Positions 51,895-62,685 of a DNA stretch of 64,000 nucleotides are shown one piece after another. The notes under the pieces were generated by a model. That model was not told the DNA's origin. It searched no databases and saw nothing but the letters and a program-made list of their open reading frames with translations. Origin of the DNA: Lacrimispora xylanolytica (lineage in GTDB: Bacteria > Bacillota > Clostridia > Lachnospirales > Lachnospiraceae); assembly GCF_026723765.1 (NCBI RefSeq), contig NZ_CP113524.1:3457001-3521000 (forward strand). Direction: 5' to 3'. Position 1 is the stretch's first letter; every line of letters begins with the position of its first letter. The position numbers and the translations under genes were made by a program.

Positions 51895-52605
51895 TTATGC
51901 CTCTCCAAGCTCTTCCACCATCCGGTATCCGACCCCCATCTCAGTGAGGATATATTGGGGATTCCCAGGATTAATTTCTATTTTTCTTCGAATGTTGGCC
52001 ATATTCACCCGCAAGGTATGGCTCTCATCCGTATAAAGCCCCCATATTTCCCGAATGATAAAATCATGAGTCAATACTTTGCCTGCATTTTTGGAAAGAA
52101 GCACCATAATCTTGTATTCAATGGGCGTTAAATGAACCCGCTCTCCATCCTTTATGACGATTCGCTTTCCATAATTAATTTCCAGATTCCCTACCATGAA
52201 TTTATCTGCTTCATGACCTCCCGCGCCAGCTGCCTCTGCGCTGTGGCGGATGGCTGTTCGAATCCGGGCAAGAAGCTCTGGTGTGCCAAAGGGCTTTACG
52301 ATATAATCATCTGCCCCAAGATCAAGAGCTGCTACTTTCTCCCGTTCATGGCCTCTGGCTGATACTACAATGATAGGTACCTTTGACCAGCTTCGGATTT
52401 TTTTCAGTATCTCCACCCCGTCCATATCAGGAAGACCAAGGTCCAAAAGAATGATATCAGGGATGTGAGAGGTGAACATGGAAAGTCCTTCCTTTCCTGT
52501 TTTGGCTTTTATGACCTGATAATCGTTAGAAGTTAATACTGCTGAGATGAAATTGCAGATGGCATCCTCATCTTCGATGATTAAGACCGTTGGTTTGGTA
52601 TCCAT
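51895..52605 (-). CDS. kdpE: KdpE response regulator
   Basis: KdpE activates the kdp potassium pump operon when phosphorylated by KdpD. The 236-residue protein has a receiver domain (EDED 11-14, phospho-acceptor D55 in IILLDLGLPD, K at about 104) and a winged helix with LTPIEYKIMVLL and ESHTLRVNMANIRRKIE. The ATG at 52605 follows AAAGGAAG; a GTG further upstream is in the ribosome site. It is the last gene of the operon, 1 base past kdpD. Confidence 0.95.
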   Translation of the reverse strand: MDTKPTVLIIEDEDAICNFISAVLTSNDYQVIKAKTGKEGLSMFTSHIPDIILLDLGLPDMDGVEILKKIRSWSKVPIIVVSARGHEREKVAALDLGADDYIVKPFGTPELLARIRTAIRHSAEAAGAGGHEADKFMVGNLEINYGKRIVIKDGERVHLTPIEYKIMVLLSKNAGKVLTHDFIIREIWGLYTDESHTLRVNMANIRRKIEINPGNPQYILTEMGVGYRMVEELGEA

Positions 52606-52606
52606 T

Positions 52607-55300
52607 TTATTCACTTCCTTTCAATGGCAGGGTAAGGCGAAATACGGCTCCTTTGCCCTCCCTGTTTTCAGCCATTAATTCGCCTCCATGGGCGTTTATA
52701 ATGGTCTTGCAGATAGACAATCCGATTCCAAGGCCTCTGGCTGAATCAGAGCTTCTATGTTCTGCCGGCTTATTTCCGGTAAAAAGATAAGGAAATTCCT
52801 CCTGGGAAATCCCCTTTCCCCGATCCATGACCATAAATTCAGCCCAATCTCCATTCCTTTTTAAGTGGAGCTCCACAGGGGTATCCTCTGGTGAATACTT
52901 GATCCCATTTTCCAAAAGATTGATGAGTACCTGTACAATCAGCGTGCCATCCATGGGAACCTCCAGGTACTCCTCTGGTACATACACCATGATTTCCCGT
53001 TGGGGAAACCTGTGCTTGATTCTGCTTACTGCCTCTCCCACTACCTCCTCCGCTGCTTCCGGTTTGGTTACTAAATTAGATGCGTTTTCGTTAATTCTTG
53101 TAACCGAAAGAAGATTTTCCACCATGCGGATCAGCCATTGGGATTCTTCCTGTATATTGGCAATAAGGCTATCTCTTGTCGCCTCGTCAAGCGCTTTTCT
53201 GTTTTCCAAAATGGCAGAGCTGGAGCCTAATATCCCTGCAAGGGGGGTGCGCAGATCGTGAGAAATGGCCCGCAAAAGCGTGCTCCTCATTCTCTCCTTT
53301 TCTGACTCCACCACAATGCGGTTCTGCTCATCAGAAAGCTTTTGCCGCTCCAGAGCCATGGCTGCCTGAGATGCGATCATCCGCAGGAACAGACGGGTAT
53401 CGTGATCTAACTTTCCCTTTTTACAGGAGATTCCCCAAACAGCAAGAACCTTCCCCTGGGAAACCACTGGCATATAGAAAGCGGCAGCTCCCATTAAAGT
53501 ATCCGTTCCTGCCCCGGCCCGCTTCTGATTGAGAAATACCCAGTGTGCCACTGCCTTTTCATCCGGAGAATTCAAAACAGAAGCATCCACGTCGTCAAAC
53601 GCCTGCATGACTATTCCATCTTCCCCCTGTACCGGATCCAAAGGAAAGAACACAATGGATCGGTCAAACAGCCTGGTGATGTAGTCATTGGTCAATGATA
53701 CAATAGTTTCAAGTCCTCTGGCTGCCAAAAGCTTTTTGTTGATCTCATAAAGCACCTCCGTCCGGTGCTCCCTTTTTACCGCAAGTCTTGCTTCCGCTTT
53801 AATCCTTACCGTCATGGCACTTGTAATCAGTGCCACCAAAAGCATAATAAGAAAGGTCAGCGGATAGCCGGTTTGTATGGCATCCAGAGTAAAATAAGGC
53901 TCTGTAAAAAAGAAATTAAAGGTCAGGACGCTGATGACGGAGGAGGCAATTCCATATACATACCCTTCTGTGACCCTCGAAATCAGTAAAACAGAAAAAA
54001 TATAAACCATAATAATGTTCTGGTTCATAACATCCAGACCATGAAATCCAAAGGACAGTAAGGTAGCTGCCACCAAGATAGCAAGGGATTTCATGGAATC
54101 TCCTAAGGATAGATGGGGCATTTCCACATTTAAACTTTTACGTGGTTTTCGATAGCTCCGTTTTCCCACAGTTCCAGGGATGATATGGACCTCTATGGCT
54201 GGCAAAAGGGAAATCAGCTTATCTTCTAAATCCTCTTCAAACAGACTTTTCAGTGTCTTTCGGTTCCGGCTCTTACCCACCACTATATTTGTAATTCCAG
54301 ATAGCTTTGCATATTCCGATATGACAATTGAAAGGTCATGACCGGTCAGGTTTACGATTTCAGCTCCCAGCTTTTCTGCCAGCTCTATATTCTCCTGAAT
54401 GGTCTTTTGCTGCTGCTTTGTGACCCCTTCTCTTTTGGTATCTTCCACATAAAGAGCACTCCAGCTTGCATGAAATGCTTCCGCTGCCCTGGCGGTCCAG
54501 CGGATACATTTGGCAGAGGAGGGTGAGGGACCGATGCAGACCAGCATCTTTGTATTAGCCAGCTTATCGGATAAGGTGCGCTGGTTTTGATTTTCCAGAC
54601 TTATCTTATCAGCCGTGCATCTAAGAGCAATTTCCCGCAAAAGTCTTAAATTTTCCCGACTGAAAAAGTTCTGCATAGCCAGCCTGGCACGGTCAGGACC
54701 GTAGACCTTACCGCCTTCCAAACGGCGCAGAAGCTCTTCCGGCTCAAGATCCACCAGCTTGATTTCCTCTGCCCGGTCAAAAATGTAATCCGGTACGGTT
54801 TCCTGAACCCTGATTGTTGTGATGTTCTCTATGACATCATTCAGACTTTCCATATGCTGGACATTTACCGTGGTGTAAACATCGATGCCTGCTGCCAGCA
54901 GCTCCTCAATATCCTGATACCTTTTTTTATTTCTTCCGCCTTCCCCATTGGTGTGGGCCAGTTCATCCACTAAAATCAGCTCCGGCTTTCGCCTTAGGGC
55001 TTCGTCCAAGTCGAATTCTTTTAACTCTATCTTCCGGTATGATACTGTTTTGGGAGGGAGGATGGGGAGTCCTTTCAGCTTTTCCATGGTTTCCGGGCGT
55101 GTATGAGGCTCAATATAGCCAACCAGAACATCCACGCCGCTTCTATAAAGCTCCTGCGCCGCATCCAGCATGGCATACGTTTTTCCAACACCAGCCGCGT
55201 ACCCAAAAAAAATTTTAAGTTTGCCTGCCGGCTTTGACTCTCCGGCTTTGATCGTCTCTAAAATTTCATCGGGATCCGGCCTCTGGTCCATCAGATCCAT
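52607..55300 (-). CDS. kdpD: KdpD sensor kinase
   Basis: KdpD senses potassium limitation and osmotic upshift. The protein of 897 residues has the N-terminal KdpD domain with Walker A GYAAGVGKTYAML (about 30-42) and a universal-stress-like domain (about 230-370). About four membrane helices follow (about 395-495), then a GAF-like region and the histidine-kinase core (phospho-acceptor in AISHDLRTPLAG) with a GHKL ATPase. The start is either ATG 55324 (no site) or ATG 55300 preceded by AAGGTGGTGA; the latter is used. Its gene follows kdpC, as usual for clostridia. Confidence 0.93.
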   Translation of the reverse strand: MDLMDQRPDPDEILETIKAGESKPAGKLKIFFGYAAGVGKTYAMLDAAQELYRSGVDVLVGYIEPHTRPETMEKLKGLPILPPKTVSYRKIELKEFDLDEALRRKPELILVDELAHTNGEGGRNKKRYQDIEELLAAGIDVYTTVNVQHMESLNDVIENITTIRVQETVPDYIFDRAEEIKLVDLEPEELLRRLEGGKVYGPDRARLAMQNFFSRENLRLLREIALRCTADKISLENQNQRTLSDKLANTKMLVCIGPSPSSAKCIRWTARAAEAFHASWSALYVEDTKREGVTKQQQKTIQENIELAEKLGAEIVNLTGHDLSIVISEYAKLSGITNIVVGKSRNRKTLKSLFEEDLEDKLISLLPAIEVHIIPGTVGKRSYRKPRKSLNVEMPHLSLGDSMKSLAILVAATLLSFGFHGLDVMNQNIIMVYIFSVLLISRVTEGYVYGIASSVISVLTFNFFFTEPYFTLDAIQTGYPLTFLIMLLVALITSAMTVRIKAEARLAVKREHRTEVLYEINKKLLAARGLETIVSLTNDYITRLFDRSIVFFPLDPVQGEDGIVMQAFDDVDASVLNSPDEKAVAHWVFLNQKRAGAGTDTLMGAAAFYMPVVSQGKVLAVWGISCKKGKLDHDTRLFLRMIASQAAMALERQKLSDEQNRIVVESEKERMRSTLLRAISHDLRTPLAGILGSSSAILENRKALDEATRDSLIANIQEESQWLIRMVENLLSVTRINENASNLVTKPEAAEEVVGEAVSRIKHRFPQREIMVYVPEEYLEVPMDGTLIVQVLINLLENGIKYSPEDTPVELHLKRNGDWAEFMVMDRGKGISQEEFPYLFTGNKPAEHRSSDSARGLGIGLSICKTIINAHGGELMAENREGKGAVFRLTLPLKGSE

Positions 55301-55345
55301 TCCTGCATCACCACCTTTATCCATGAATCATACCACTTTTTTTGA

Positions 55346-55903
55346 TTATATCAACCCATCCAGCGCTAAATTTACCATGAATACATCAACAGAAGGCTCC
55401 CCCATAAATCCCAGCAGCCGGCCACTTGTATATTTATTAATCATATGGCGCACTTCCTCTTCTGTCATCCCTCTGGCCTTTGCAATCCGCGTTACCTGAT
55501 ACTCAGCTGCCTGGGGTGTGATGTGAGGGTCAACGCCGCTTCCCGAACCAGTGACCAGATCCATTGGTATCTCCTTTTCATTCTCTGGATCCAATGTATG
55601 CCACCAGTCTATCCGTTCCTGCACCAGCGTTTTCTCCTCCTTGCTGACTGGAGAAAGATTGGAGACCCCTGCTGGCCTTCCCACCAGATATTCCGGCTTT
55701 GTGAAGCTTTGGGCAAGGAGTCTGGAACCCATTTCTATTTTTGTACCGTTTTTTTGATGCACGGCAACGATACTTCCATTTGCCTGGTCCTTAAACACAA
55801 GCTGGGAAATCCCTGTTATGGCTGCCGTATATAGAGCACCGCAAAGAACCGTCATAATGCCAAAGCAAATGAGTGCTGGTCTTAATTCTTTTTTTAATTT
55901 CAT
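55346..55903 (-). CDS. kdpC: Potassium-transporting ATPase KdpC subunit
   Basis: KdpC assists ATP binding by KdpB in the KdpFABC pump. The 185-residue protein has one N-terminal membrane helix (about 10-32) and an extracytoplasmic domain with GSRLLAQSFTKPEYLVGRPAG, VTGSGSGVDPHITPQAAEYQ and the MINKYTSGRLLGFMGE end, all conserved. The start follows AAGGAGG, 14 bases after kdpB. Confidence 0.96.
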   Translation of the reverse strand: MKLKKELRPALICFGIMTVLCGALYTAAITGISQLVFKDQANGSIVAVHQKNGTKIEMGSRLLAQSFTKPEYLVGRPAGVSNLSPVSKEEKTLVQERIDWWHTLDPENEKEIPMDLVTGSGSGVDPHITPQAAEYQVTRIAKARGMTEEEVRHMINKYTSGRLLGFMGEPSVDVFMVNLALDGLI

Positions 55904-55917
55904 AGGTACACACCTCC

Positions 55918-57975
55918 TTATACCAGCCCACTGGCCGTCAACAGCATATCAATTATCTTAATAGCCAGAAATGGAGCCGTGATTCCCCCCAGTCCATAGA
56001 TCAATAAGTTTCTTTTTAGCAGCTTACCGGCTGGCAGTTCACGGTATTTGACTCCCTTTAATGCCAGGGGAATGAGCGCTATGATAATGACAGCGTTATA
56101 AATAATGGCTGAGAGCATGGCACTGGAAGCACTGGTCAGTCCCATAAAATTAAGGGTTGAAAGCTTAGGATAGATACCGAAAAACAGCACCGGTATAATA
56201 GCAAAATACTTTGCCACATCGTTTGCCACACTGAATGTGGTCAGTGAACCTCTGGTCATTAACAGCTGTTTTCCTATCCGGACGATGTCAATCAGCTTTG
56301 TGGGACTGGAGTCTAAGTCAACCATGTTTCCGGCTTCCTTCGCCGCCTGTGTGCCCGTATTCATGGCAACGGCAACATCTGCCTGGGCCAGTGCGGGAGC
56401 ATCGTTTGTTCCATCTCCTGTCATGGCGACCAGATGGCCACCTGCCTGATACTCCCGGATAAGGGCTAGCTTTGCTTCCGGAGTCGCCTCAGCAAGAAAA
56501 TCATCCACCCCTGCCTCCGCTGCGATAGCCGCTGCAGTCATTGGGTTATCTCCGGTTATCATAATAGTCTTAATGCCCATGATTCTAAGGTCCTCAAAGC
56601 GTTCCTTTACTCCGTTCTTTACAATATCCTTTAAGTGAACCACGCCAAGGACCTGACTGTTTTTTACTACCACCAGAGGGGTTCCTCCAGATCCCGCGAC
56701 CCGTTTCACCAGCCGGTCACATTCCTCTGGATATCTGCCGCCCTTTTTTATGACATACTCTTTTACCGTATCTGCGGCTCCTTTTCTTATTTCATTTCCC
56801 TGATAATCAATTCCGCTCATCCTTGTTTTGGCTGTAAACTCTACAAAAACTGCATCGAGCCCGGAAAGCTCCCTGCCCCGTAAGCCAAACCGCTCCTTGG
56901 CAAGCACTACAATGCTTCTTCCTTCCGCCGTTTCATCGGCAAGAGAGGACAGCTGGGCGGCATCTGCAAGCTCCTGTTCTGTTACTCCGGGAACCGGAAG
57001 AAATTCGCTGGCCTGACGGTTACCTAAGGTAATTGTCCCTGTCTTATCCAGCAAAAGTACATCCACATCTCCTGCCGCCTCAATGGCGCGGCCGCTCATA
57101 GCCAGAACATTGGCCTGATTCAAGCGGCTCATTCCTGCAATTCCAATGGAAGAAAGAAGGGCACCGATGGTGGTAGGGGCAAGGCATACGAGTAGAGCGA
57201 TGATGTTGGTAAGAGAAATCGCAGTGCCAGACCCTGCCTGTTTGCTTGCGAAGTCTGTAAAGGGCAATAAAGCCGCCGTTACCACCAGAAAAATTATGGT
57301 TAAGGTAATGAGAAGAATCTGAAGGGCAATTTCATTGGGCGTTTTTTTTCTGGCTGCCCCTTCTACCATTGAAATCATCTTATCCAGAAAGCTCTCTCCG
57401 GCCTCTGCCGTCACCCTGATGATGAGCCAGTCAGATACCAGGGTGGTGCCCCCGGTTACTGCACTTCTGTCCCCTCCTGATTCCCGGATTACGGGAGCAG
57501 ATTCTCCGGTGATGGCACTTTCGTCAACAGAGGCTGCTCCTTCTATGACTTCTCCATCCATTGGAATCTGTTCGTTCCCTTTCACGTATACGATATCCCC
57601 TTTTTTCAGGGTATTGGAAAGGACTTCCGTGTAATCAGAAAGGTCCGCAGCATTCTTTAGCTTTCTGGCCTTCACATCTTTTCTGGCACTGCGGAGGCTG
57701 GCTGCCTGTGCCCTTCCTCTTCCCTCTGCTATGGATTCTGCAAAATTAGCAAAAAGTACCGTAAACCATAGAATCAGTGAGATGGAAAGGGTATAACCGG
57801 CCCTTTCATCGCTGATTCCAAAAAATGAGAGAACATAGAACCCTGAGGTCATGATGGCACCAAGATAAACCACAAGCATCACCGGATTTTTTACCTGGAC
57901 GCGGGGAGACAGCTTTTTAAAGGACTGTCTGATGGCATCTGCAAATATACTTTTTTTACTATCTTTCATTTCCAT
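55918..57975 (-). CDS. kdpB: Potassium-transporting P-type ATPase KdpB
   Basis: KdpB is the catalytic P-type ATPase of the pump. The 685-residue protein has the phosphorylated D310 in DKTGT, the dephosphorylation loop TGES (156-159), [15 protein letters not shown] for nucleotide/magnesium binding, and about seven helices. Length is standard (about 680). Its start lies 14 bases downstream of the kdpA stop. Confidence 0.97.
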
Positions 57976-57989
57976 ATTATCACCTTCTG

Positions 57990-59675
57990 TTATCTTGATG
58001 TTACAAAATCAGCAATGGGGCCAAGTGCCAGAGCAGGTAAAAAGCTGAGCGCACCCACAATCAGGATAACGCCGATCAAAAGGCCGATAAAGGTTACGTT
58101 GCTGGTTGATAAGGTTCCTTCACTGGAAGCAACGGTCTTTTTCTTTGCCATATTTCCGGCAAGGAATATGGCTGCGCCCATGGGGATAAAACGGACCAAA
58201 AGCATGATGAGACCGCCGGTTACATTGGTAAATACTGTATTCCCATTAAAGCCTCCAAAGCTGCTTCCATTGTTGTTTGCCATGGATGAAAAGGCGTACA
58301 AAATCTCTGAAAATCCGTGGGCACCCGAATTGGTAAGCCAGGTTGCTGCCTCTGGCATACAGACTGCTGCTGCCGTTCCAATAAGAGTTAAAAGCGGCGG
58401 TGTTAGAACGATTAAACACACCATCTTCATGTCAAATGGCTCCACCTTTTTCCCTAAATACTCCGGCGTTCTCCCCACCATAAGTCCGGCGATAAATACC
58501 GTTAAGAGCACAAAACCCAGCATTCCATAAAGGCCACTTCCCACGCCTCCAAATACAATTTCCCCTAGCTGCATGAGAAACATAGTGACAAACCCAGCCA
58601 TGGGAGTCAGGCTGTCATGCATGGCATTGACAGAGCCATTGGAGGCGGCCGTCGTAACCACAGCCCATAACGAGGACCCTCCCACACCATGAATCACTTC
58701 TTTTCCTTCCATGCTTCCAGAGGCAGCCACTCCATTCCAGACAGGGCCAGCCATTTGCTCGCTCATGGTCGCCACCAGCAATGCGGCGGCAAAGAAAATC
58801 ATCATGACAGCATAGACGGTGCGCCCCTGCTTTCTGTCCTTAACCGCCTTTCCAAAGCTGACACAAAGGGAAGCCGGCAGGAGTAGTATGGATAACACCT
58901 GAATGAAATTGGATAATATCGTAGGATTCTCCAGAGGATATGCAGAGTTCATTCCAAAGAAGCCGCCGCCATTGGTGCCAAGCTGTTTAATGGCGATCTG
59001 ACTGGCTGCAGGGCCAAGAGGAATCACCTGCACTGACCCATGTTCCAGTGTGGAAACCTCTTTATATGGTTCAAAGGACTGGACAACGCCCTGAGAAACC
59101 AAAAGAAGAGCAATTACTATGGAAAGAGGCAGAAGGATATAAAGCACACTCCTTGTTACGTCCTCCCAAAAGTTTCCCAACGTGCTTGTTTGCTTCCATA
59201 TGAACCCTCGAATCAGGGCATAAAGAACTGCGATTCCAGTGGCCGCTGATACAAAGTTCTGAACCGTCAGGCCCAGAAGCTGGGTCAGATAAGACAGAGT
59301 GCTCTCCCCGGAATACGCCTGCCAGTTTGTATTGGATACAAAGCTTGCCGCCGTGTTAAAGGCCAGATGCCAGCTGGTTCCCTTCATTCCCTGGGGATTA
59401 AAGGGCAGAAACCCCTGTAAAATCAACATAAGAAACAGGAATATAAAGCCTGCTGCACTGAAGAAAATGATGGAACAGGTATACTGCTTTGCAGTCATTT
59501 CCTCATGGTCACTCATTCCCATAAGCTTATAAATTTTTTTTTCCACAGGAGCCAAAAGCGGACTTAAAAAAACCTTTTGTCCGCTCATTACCTTATGGAT
59601 ATAATTCCCCGTCAAAATGGATAACCCTAATAAAACAGCCACATAAAAAATATCCTGCATGATGATATACTTCAT
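57990..59675 (-). CDS. kdpA: Potassium-transporting ATPase KdpA subunit
   Basis: KdpA is the potassium-selective channel-like subunit related to Trk/Ktr proteins. The 561-residue membrane protein has about ten helices and selectivity-filter loops such as [38 protein letters not shown] and [14 protein letters not shown]. Length is as expected. Its ATG overlaps the kdpF stop (ATGA), so translation is coupled. Confidence 0.97.
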
Positions 59676-61646: not shown

Positions 61647-62531
61647 TTAACTTGAAAGGTGTGGAAAGGAAAGATCGTCAAGCTCTGATCTGAGCCTGAT
61701 ATCTCCATACTTTGCCGCAAGGGGCGAAAAGATTCTCACTGTCTCTTCTGCCCGTTTCTTAAAGGTGGCCGGATCTACAAATTCTATGGTCCGCATATTG
61801 TGAAGACGGTCCGCCAATGCAATCAAAGCACCACGGTCATCGGTACATATGCCTGTTTTTTGAAACTCTTCGTAGGCATAGAGTATCTCTTTGATGATTC
61901 CTTCTTCCTCCCATTTTCCTGCATCATGAAGAAGTCCAGCGCCTACCGTCATAAAGTCTGCTCCCATGTCTGCTAAGAGTATGGCTACCTTTAAGGGATG
62001 GGTAATGTATTCCTCTCCAGAATACCGCTTTTGTCCCTGATGGAAATGAAATGCCTTTTCATATAGGTTTCTCAATTTTTCCGGTTCATATTCTGTACCA
62101 TTTTCATTTAGAGTATTTAAAAGCTCTTTATAAAGTTCTTCCGGTTCCTTTAAGTTTTCTGTATTTTTTAAAGATAATCCCATGGTGTCTCCTTTCCATG
62201 ATTGGTCACGGAGATGAAACGCTCTTAACAGCGCGGGAGAATAGCCGAACTGGCTGATAAAGGCTTTGGCAAAGCCGCCATGGGTATCCCAGCCATAATC
62301 GAGAGCCACATCTAAGATTTTCCGGCCTCTGGATATTTCTCCGGCTGCCGCAAAAAGACGTCTCTGCTTTAGATATTCCATGGGAGACGCTCCCACCTTT
62401 TCCTTAAAACATCTGGAAAAATACCAGGGGGAATAGCCTGCCCATGCGCTTAAAGCTTCCACAGTCAGATTCTCTTTTAAATGCTCTTCCATATAGAGGG
62501 TACATGACAAGGCCCATTCTCCTCTTTTCAT
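61647..62531 (-). CDS. AraC helix-turn-helix fused to a RelA/SpoT-type HD domain
   Basis: This 294-residue protein joins an AraC DNA-binding domain to an HD domain like the alarmone hydrolase half of RelA/SpoT. The AraC domain covers about 5-105, with the double helix-turn-helix in LSAWAGYSPWYFSRCFKEKV and VALDYGWDTHGGFAKAF pieces. The HD domain covers about 150-290. Kept residues include R169, H178 in ITHP, H202-D203 in LLHD and D241 with N245 in ADRLHNMRT. The catalytic Glu-Asp pair of hydrolases (HDVVED) is replaced by K206-W207. The ATG at 62531 follows AGGAGG; the longer frame to 62654 is rejected. A promoter and palindrome lie upstream. Confidence 0.85.
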   Translation of the reverse strand: MKRGEWALSCTLYMEEHLKENLTVEALSAWAGYSPWYFSRCFKEKVGASPMEYLKQRRLFAAAGEISRGRKILDVALDYGWDTHGGFAKAFISQFGYSPALLRAFHLRDQSWKGDTMGLSLKNTENLKEPEELYKELLNTLNENGTEYEPEKLRNLYEKAFHFHQGQKRYSGEEYITHPLKVAILLADMGADFMTVGAGLLHDAGKWEEEGIIKEILYAYEEFQKTGICTDDRGALIALADRLHNMRTIEFVDPATFKKRAEETVRIFSPLAAKYGDIRLRSELDDLSFPHLSS

Positions 62532-62550
62532 TCCGCTGCCTCCTGTTGTT

Positions 62551-62577
62551 GGTTTCCCACGTGGTAACCTGATTATA
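62551..62577 (-). promoter_or_regulatory. -10 element and palindrome before the AraC-HD gene
   Basis: TATAAT (complement of 62572-62577) is followed on the minus strand by GGTTACCACGTGGGAAACC (62551-62569), an imperfect palindrome centred on CCACGTGG. The palindrome sits around the expected start site, as an autorepressor site would. Confidence 0.5.
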
Positions 62578-62685
62578 GCAGAATGAAAAGAGGCTTGCTG
62601 CTCCAAATTTGCCTTTTTTAGAATTTTTAGAACTTCAAGAATATTTAGAATCAATAAAATGATTAGAATGATTGGTAAAAACTGA

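Follow-up and report, generated by a model that had tools for sequence, protein, structure and literature searches.

Whether a hydrolase domain of the Rel/SpoT type that has lost its catalytic residues can serve as the sensor of a transcription factor is the question raised by a gene of Lacrimispora xylanolytica (Lachnospiraceae), located in a stretch of 64,000 nucleotides (assembly GCF_026723765.1, contig NZ_CP113524.1, positions 3,457,001 to 3,521,000), hereafter called the window. The gene joins an AraC-type DNA-binding domain to an HD domain of the RelA/SpoT homologue (RSH) type. Because the cutting residues of the hydrolase are lost and those that grip the nucleotide are kept across such fusions, the protein probably reads the alarmone (p)ppGpp and switches genes in response. 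A sequence-only reading of the window had already delimited the gene correctly, with the ATG at 62531, the end of the stop codon at 61647 and a product of 294 amino acids. An alternative open reading frame of 335 amino acids with a TTG start extends upstream of the ATG in the same frame, and is unlikely since it reads back across a conserved promoter (see below). The coordinates of all features are collected in Table 1.

The two-domain composition proposed in the sequence-only reading was borne out by Pfam, by solved relatives and by fold comparison. The Pfam matches (HTH_18, 8.1e-17; HTH_AraC, 6e-11; HD_4, 1.6e-17; HD, 7.2e-05) all exceeded the curated cut-offs. The N-terminal half, a double helix-turn-helix domain as in the AraC/XylS family, matched AraC-type domains such as 3oio, SoxS, MarA and Rob. 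As for the C-terminal half, the top solved relatives were Rel catalytic domains (6s2t, E = 1.3e-23), and structure prediction placed it with Rel/SpoT; an unrelated HD family was ruled out, with Rel/SpoT ranking first in sequence and fold. The domain has the Rel/SpoT-type HD fold, and the reading frame stops after it, without the synthetase, TGS and ACT parts of a long RSH protein. Nor is the protein a small alarmone hydrolase (SAH/MESH1), that is, a single-domain hydrolase with HDxxED.

When a maximum-likelihood tree was built from 35 fusions together with 57 long Rel proteins and Escherichia coli RelA, all fusions fell into a single clade (100/99) with a stem length of 0.81, placed among Lachnospirales Rel (97/83); note that the tree program warned of long branches and that small alarmone hydrolases were left out of the tree. 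The HD domain of the fusions thus has a single origin from Rel. The same genome also has a normal long Rel. It encodes, in addition, a small-alarmone-hydrolase-like protein of 190 amino acids with an intact HDVVED motif (L137, G000:C1:595140-595493), of which the top solved relative was Lmo0812 (4yf1).

Residue counts rest on these 35 fusions, selected from 37 distinct ones; L133, with a stop codon inside, and L135, truncated where its contig ends, were excluded. Four later fusions (L252-L255; L255 is without part of the first helix-turn-helix) stand outside all counts and agree with branch II described below. Alignment columns were mapped to RelSeq, and the equivalence with SpoT numbering was assigned in this analysis. 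According to the available part of PMC13299517, guanine is contacted by Arg44, Lys45, Ser46, Asn148 and Thr151, and the metal ligands are His53, His77 and Asp144, with Asp78 approaching. RelSeq R44, S46, G47, Y50, H53, R145, N148, R150 and T151 were kept in 35/35 fusions; in the numbering of the window protein, R169, S171, G172, Y175 and H178 and the whole of RLHNMRT (residues 242-248) were invariant, and D241 was present in 20/35. All five holders of (p)ppGpp in Rel/SpoT structures (R44, S46, R145, N148 and T151) are therefore found in every fusion. The catalytic Glu-Asp pair, on the other hand, read ED in 57/57 long Rel and in 0/35 fusions. The sequence-only reading had placed H178, H202, D203, D241, K206 and W207 correctly, and its statement that the pair is altered extended to the entire family; Lys-Trp itself, however, was confined to two of the 35, namely the window protein and its 99% identical neighbour. 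A 93% identical homologue has Glu-Trp at these positions, and Glu occupied the first position in 6/35.

All four metal ligands (H53, H77, D78 and D144) were kept in 20/35 fusions including the window protein, so that their conservation, as claimed in the sequence-only reading, holds for this protein and for these members but not as a feature of the family. Nineteen of the 20 formed one clade, and L129 stood at the base of the other. In the remaining 15 (branch II), H77 was replaced by Cys (13), Trp or Ser, and D144 by Glu (12), Gly (2) or Gln (1); K141 was retained in 14 and was Arg in one, and Lys stood at the second position of the lost pair in all 15. K141 was Ala in the metal-site fusions except L129, which retains H77, D78, K141 and D144 and is possibly an intermediate between the two branches. 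The RSH-like spacing claimed in the sequence-only reading did not fully hold: the distance between D203 and D241 was 38 residues in the window protein, 38-50 in the 35 fusions and 66-71 in the 57 long Rel, and the fusions therefore lack about 16-33 residues of the Rel region that links the HD motif to the ADRLHN helix. The fusion genes are under purifying selection.

With moderate confidence, we favour a pseudo-hydrolase that works as a receptor within a Rob-like chassis and whose ligand is probably (p)ppGpp; the suggestion of a nucleotide-binding sensor made in the sequence-only reading is supported by the pattern of kept binding residues and lost catalytic residues. The fusion would act as a one-component regulator of transcription with the design of Rob, with an N-terminal AraC-type domain and a C-terminal effector domain, the latter being a former Rel hydrolase in which the (p)ppGpp-cutting residues, and presumably hydrolysis, were lost and the nucleotide-holding residues kept. 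The pocket would bind (p)ppGpp, or a 3'-phosphorylated purine nucleotide much like it, without destroying it, the bound nucleotide would shift the conformation of the effector domain and so alter DNA binding, and the protein would control its own promoter through a conserved box upstream of the -10 element. On a wider proposal, we hold the balance to be even: regulators of Lachnospiraceae would sense (p)ppGpp directly via a disarmed hydrolase that replaces the GyrI-like sensor of a Rob-type AraC regulator, and one branch would then have swapped the metal site for a lysine like that of the D66K mutant of human MESH1.

Several points weigh against the receptor. K141, the holder of the 3'-pyrophosphate, is Ala in 19/35 fusions including the window protein, and the missing 16-33 residues help to shape the pocket in Rel. 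The conservation of RLHNMRT and RxSG could serve folding, since the non-contact residues L243, H244 and M246 are invariant too, and the columns of the Fisher test were not independent. In 6/7 pairs, evolution is faster in the HD half than in the AraC half. Moreover, the gene is dispensable: it is absent from 7/25 genomes of the genus, decayed in one genome (L022) and lost behind its promoter in another (G309).

The missing 16-33 residues and the loss of K141 in 19/35 also bear on an alternative in which the pseudo-hydrolase is a receptor for a different phosphorylated purine nucleotide (NADPH, 3'-phosphoadenosine-5'-phosphosulfate (PAPS) or 3'-phosphoadenosine-5'-phosphate (PAP), GTP or similar) and not for the alarmone. 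Because of these changes, the specificity of the pocket may have moved, and MESH1 D66K, which has the lysine of branch II, was crystallised with NADPH according to the available part of the source, and with PAPS by the entry title only; we regard this alternative as unlikely. A DNA-tied working hydrolase (trigger enzyme), in which the 20 metal-site members coordinate Mn2+ and rely on a different general base to hydrolyse a nucleotide, would agree with the four ligands kept in these members and with acidic residues near the lost pair, such as the Glu at its first position in 6/35. However, SpoT hydrolysis is inactivated by substitution of E82 or D83, and because the pair is lost in all 35 fusions and the metal site in 15, including a deep branch, catalysis is not what the fusion family conserves; we consider a working enzyme very doubtful. 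The hydrolase of another nucleotide suggested in the sequence-only reading is disfavoured for the 15 fusions with a broken metal site, but may hold for the 20 in which the site is intact. A structural or protein-interaction HD domain without nucleotide, acting in dimerisation or in contact with RNA polymerase or Rel, would suit the rapid evolution and the long branches seen for the HD half and has a model in the dead HD domain of E. coli RelA, a conformational switch (available part of PMC8012599), but it is improbable as the binding residues lost in RelA are kept in the 35 fusions.

A lone or artefactual fusion was ruled out by its presence in many genomes, and the arrangement is not absent from close relatives: it was found in 18/25 genomes of the genus (E up to 1e-30). 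In the family sample of 299 genomes, 18 matched at E up to 1e-20; 14 of these spanned both domains, and four the AraC half alone. In the profile search (E up to 1e-62), 21/397 genomes matched, among them two of one species, a copy interrupted by a stop codon and a copy truncated at the end of its contig. As for the order (295 genomes) and phylum (299 genomes) samples, the profile threshold was loose and the tallies of 204/295 and 270/299 are mostly ordinary Rel; thus, only rows spanning both domains were used, ordered by score with up to seven candidates scored per genome, and among the matches listed full-length copies occurred only in the genus (three and one, respectively). In the genus of one branch-II genome, the fusion was present in 5/23. 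Named carriers are Lacrimispora species and relatives, and some titles are ill-fitting labels of metagenome-assembled genomes. In Clostridium sp. HBUAS56010, a deletion remnant is located between argD and the adjacent gene (L022:4990-5170); there, the promoter box is joined to the final third of the HD domain. In genome G309, which has a branch-II fusion elsewhere, an intact fusion-type promoter without the fusion gene is located about 200 bp before fchA-folD (G309:C14, L166). Given the distribution, this remnant and this relic, the fusion is old in the taxonomic family, patchy and sometimes lost. A helix-turn-helix-only relative of 126 amino acids without the HD domain, preceded by a similar upstream box, was seen in another family of the order (L256:1731-2111). 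A phage gene was rejected on a sequence-pattern scan of viral_contigs, in which no relative was found and which detects close relatives only.

Before the fusion gene, the order is box, TATAAT, N5, TACCACGTGG, AGGAGG and ATG. The pair of box and -10 element occurred once in the window (0.03 expected). TACCACGTGG was exact before 17/20 metal-site and 6/15 branch-II fusions (18 and 10 with at most one mismatch), and it is conserved across genera although the neighbouring genes differ between them. Exact TATAAT-N5-TACCACGTGG was found once each in 10/18 genomes, nine times at the fusion and once at the G309 relic. With up to two mismatches, 40 places were found in the 18 genomes against about 37 for the reversed control, and such loose matches are therefore at chance level. 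The simple box pattern matched 18/35 fusions (shuffled mean, 0.26), the remaining 17 having variant boxes or none. The composite pattern TGGARNAG-N14-40-CCACGTGG matched in 10/18 genomes (reversed-pattern control, 4/18): seven matches at the fusion promoter, one at the relic G309:C14 and seven places in four genomes elsewhere. A box with TATAAT (AGCAAGATTGGAAAAGA) also precedes the helix-turn-helix-only gene L256. L040, a Rob-type protein with a GyrI-like domain and the strongest of the scored AraC-only matches from the taxonomic family, shows the box and TATAAT but carries another palindrome, TACCCTAGGG (L040:1434-1443), where the fusions have TACCACGTGG; a similar box was not found at nine other AraC-type loci checked. 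Being present before both the fusions and L040, the box tracks the DNA-binding domain across two sensors. The conserved promoter block suggests autoregulation, with the box as a candidate site, as expected of an autoregulatory element. The box ends about 19-20 bp upstream of TATAAT and its predicted position thus overlaps the -35 region; sites overlapping this region are typical of activators.

Genes of the argC, argJ, argB and argD types lie upstream of the fusion in the genus, and such a cluster was found at 10/12 loci of the genus and at two loci of another genus; downstream are fchA-folD or an AroM/peptidase/oligopeptide-transport set. This context fits a nutritional role, but it is not common to other genera. 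At the remaining loci, no recurrent neighbour was found except in close pairs and for a few families in 2-3 loci, and regulation of specific neighbours as a general role was rejected because the other loci have no common neighbours. Elsewhere in the window, a kdp-like gene set for potassium transport (51895-59675) was read by eye from the list of open reading frames.

Table 1. Features of the fusion gene and its promoter (positions in the window; RelSeq equivalents under remarks)
Feature	Position	Strand	Residues	Remarks
AraC-HD fusion gene	61647..62531	-		294 amino acids
AraC-type double helix-turn-helix DNA-binding domain	62223..62495	-	13-103	HTH_18, HTH_AraC; matches AraC-type domains
Rel/SpoT hydrolase-like HD domain	61656..62150	-	128-292	
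RYSGEEYITHP, guanine-binding loop	61995..62027	-	169-179	R169 = R44, S171 = S46, Y175 = Y50, metal ligand H178 = H53
HDAGKW	61911..61928	-	202-207	HD kept; Glu-Asp of RSH HDxxED replaced
ADRLHNMRT	61788..61814	-	240-248	D241 = D144, R242 = R145, N245 = N148, T248 = T151
Upstream box GGCAAATTTGGAGCAGC	62597..62613	-		Candidate AraC-domain site just upstream of or overlapping -35
TATAAT, -10 element	62572..62577	-		
TACCACGTGG, palindromic element	62557..62566	-		At the inferred transcription start
AGGAGG, ribosome-binding site	62539..62544	-		

No report of the AraC-RSH HD arrangement was found in the open-licence PubMed Central literature, and a word search of PMC3153485, a census of RSH proteins, found neither AraC nor HTH in its main text. 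The parts are known; what would be new is a disarmed alarmone hydrolase as the sensor of a regulator. If this is true, an AraC factor reading the alarmone directly would be a second enzyme-derived design in Bacillota, would show a route from a signal-degrading enzyme to a receptor, and would supply a natural scaffold from which to build a (p)ppGpp reporter. The existence of one branch with the metal site and one without it opens the step from catalysis to sensing to ordinary biochemical tests. With the hydrolase domain of long RSH proteins, the fusion shares the fold, the guanine-binding loop, the RLHNMRT helix, the origin and, in one branch, the metal ligands; it differs from them in the absence of synthetase, TGS and ACT, in the lost Glu-Asp, in the shortening by 16-33 residues and in the attachment to an AraC domain. 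As in Rob-type AraC regulators, the DNA-binding domain comes first and the effector second, and the same promoter layout is found in L040, which among the AraC relatives examined is the closest with a GyrI-like domain, but the effector of the fusion is an RSH HD domain instead of a GyrI-like one. Bacillus PurR, the first DNA-binding transcription factor found to be directly regulated by ppGpp according to the available part of the review PMC9304144, which expects further mechanisms, likewise has an enzyme-derived effector domain, and ppGpp is the effector proposed for the fusion. In the part of the source available, PurR has a phosphoribosyltransferase fold in which ppGpp competes with phosphoribosyl pyrophosphate, and binding is shown in PurR whereas it is predicted in the fusion. 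The pseudo-hydrolase domain of E. coli RelA is a catalytically dead RSH HD domain, as is predicted for the fusion; unlike the latter, it also lost the binding residues, and it regulates the synthetase in cis. Human MESH1 D66K (5VXA, 9CHY), dead and ligand-holding, has Lys for the Asp of the pair, as do 15/15 branch-II fusions, although it is a laboratory mutant of a small alarmone hydrolase and NADPH phosphatase.
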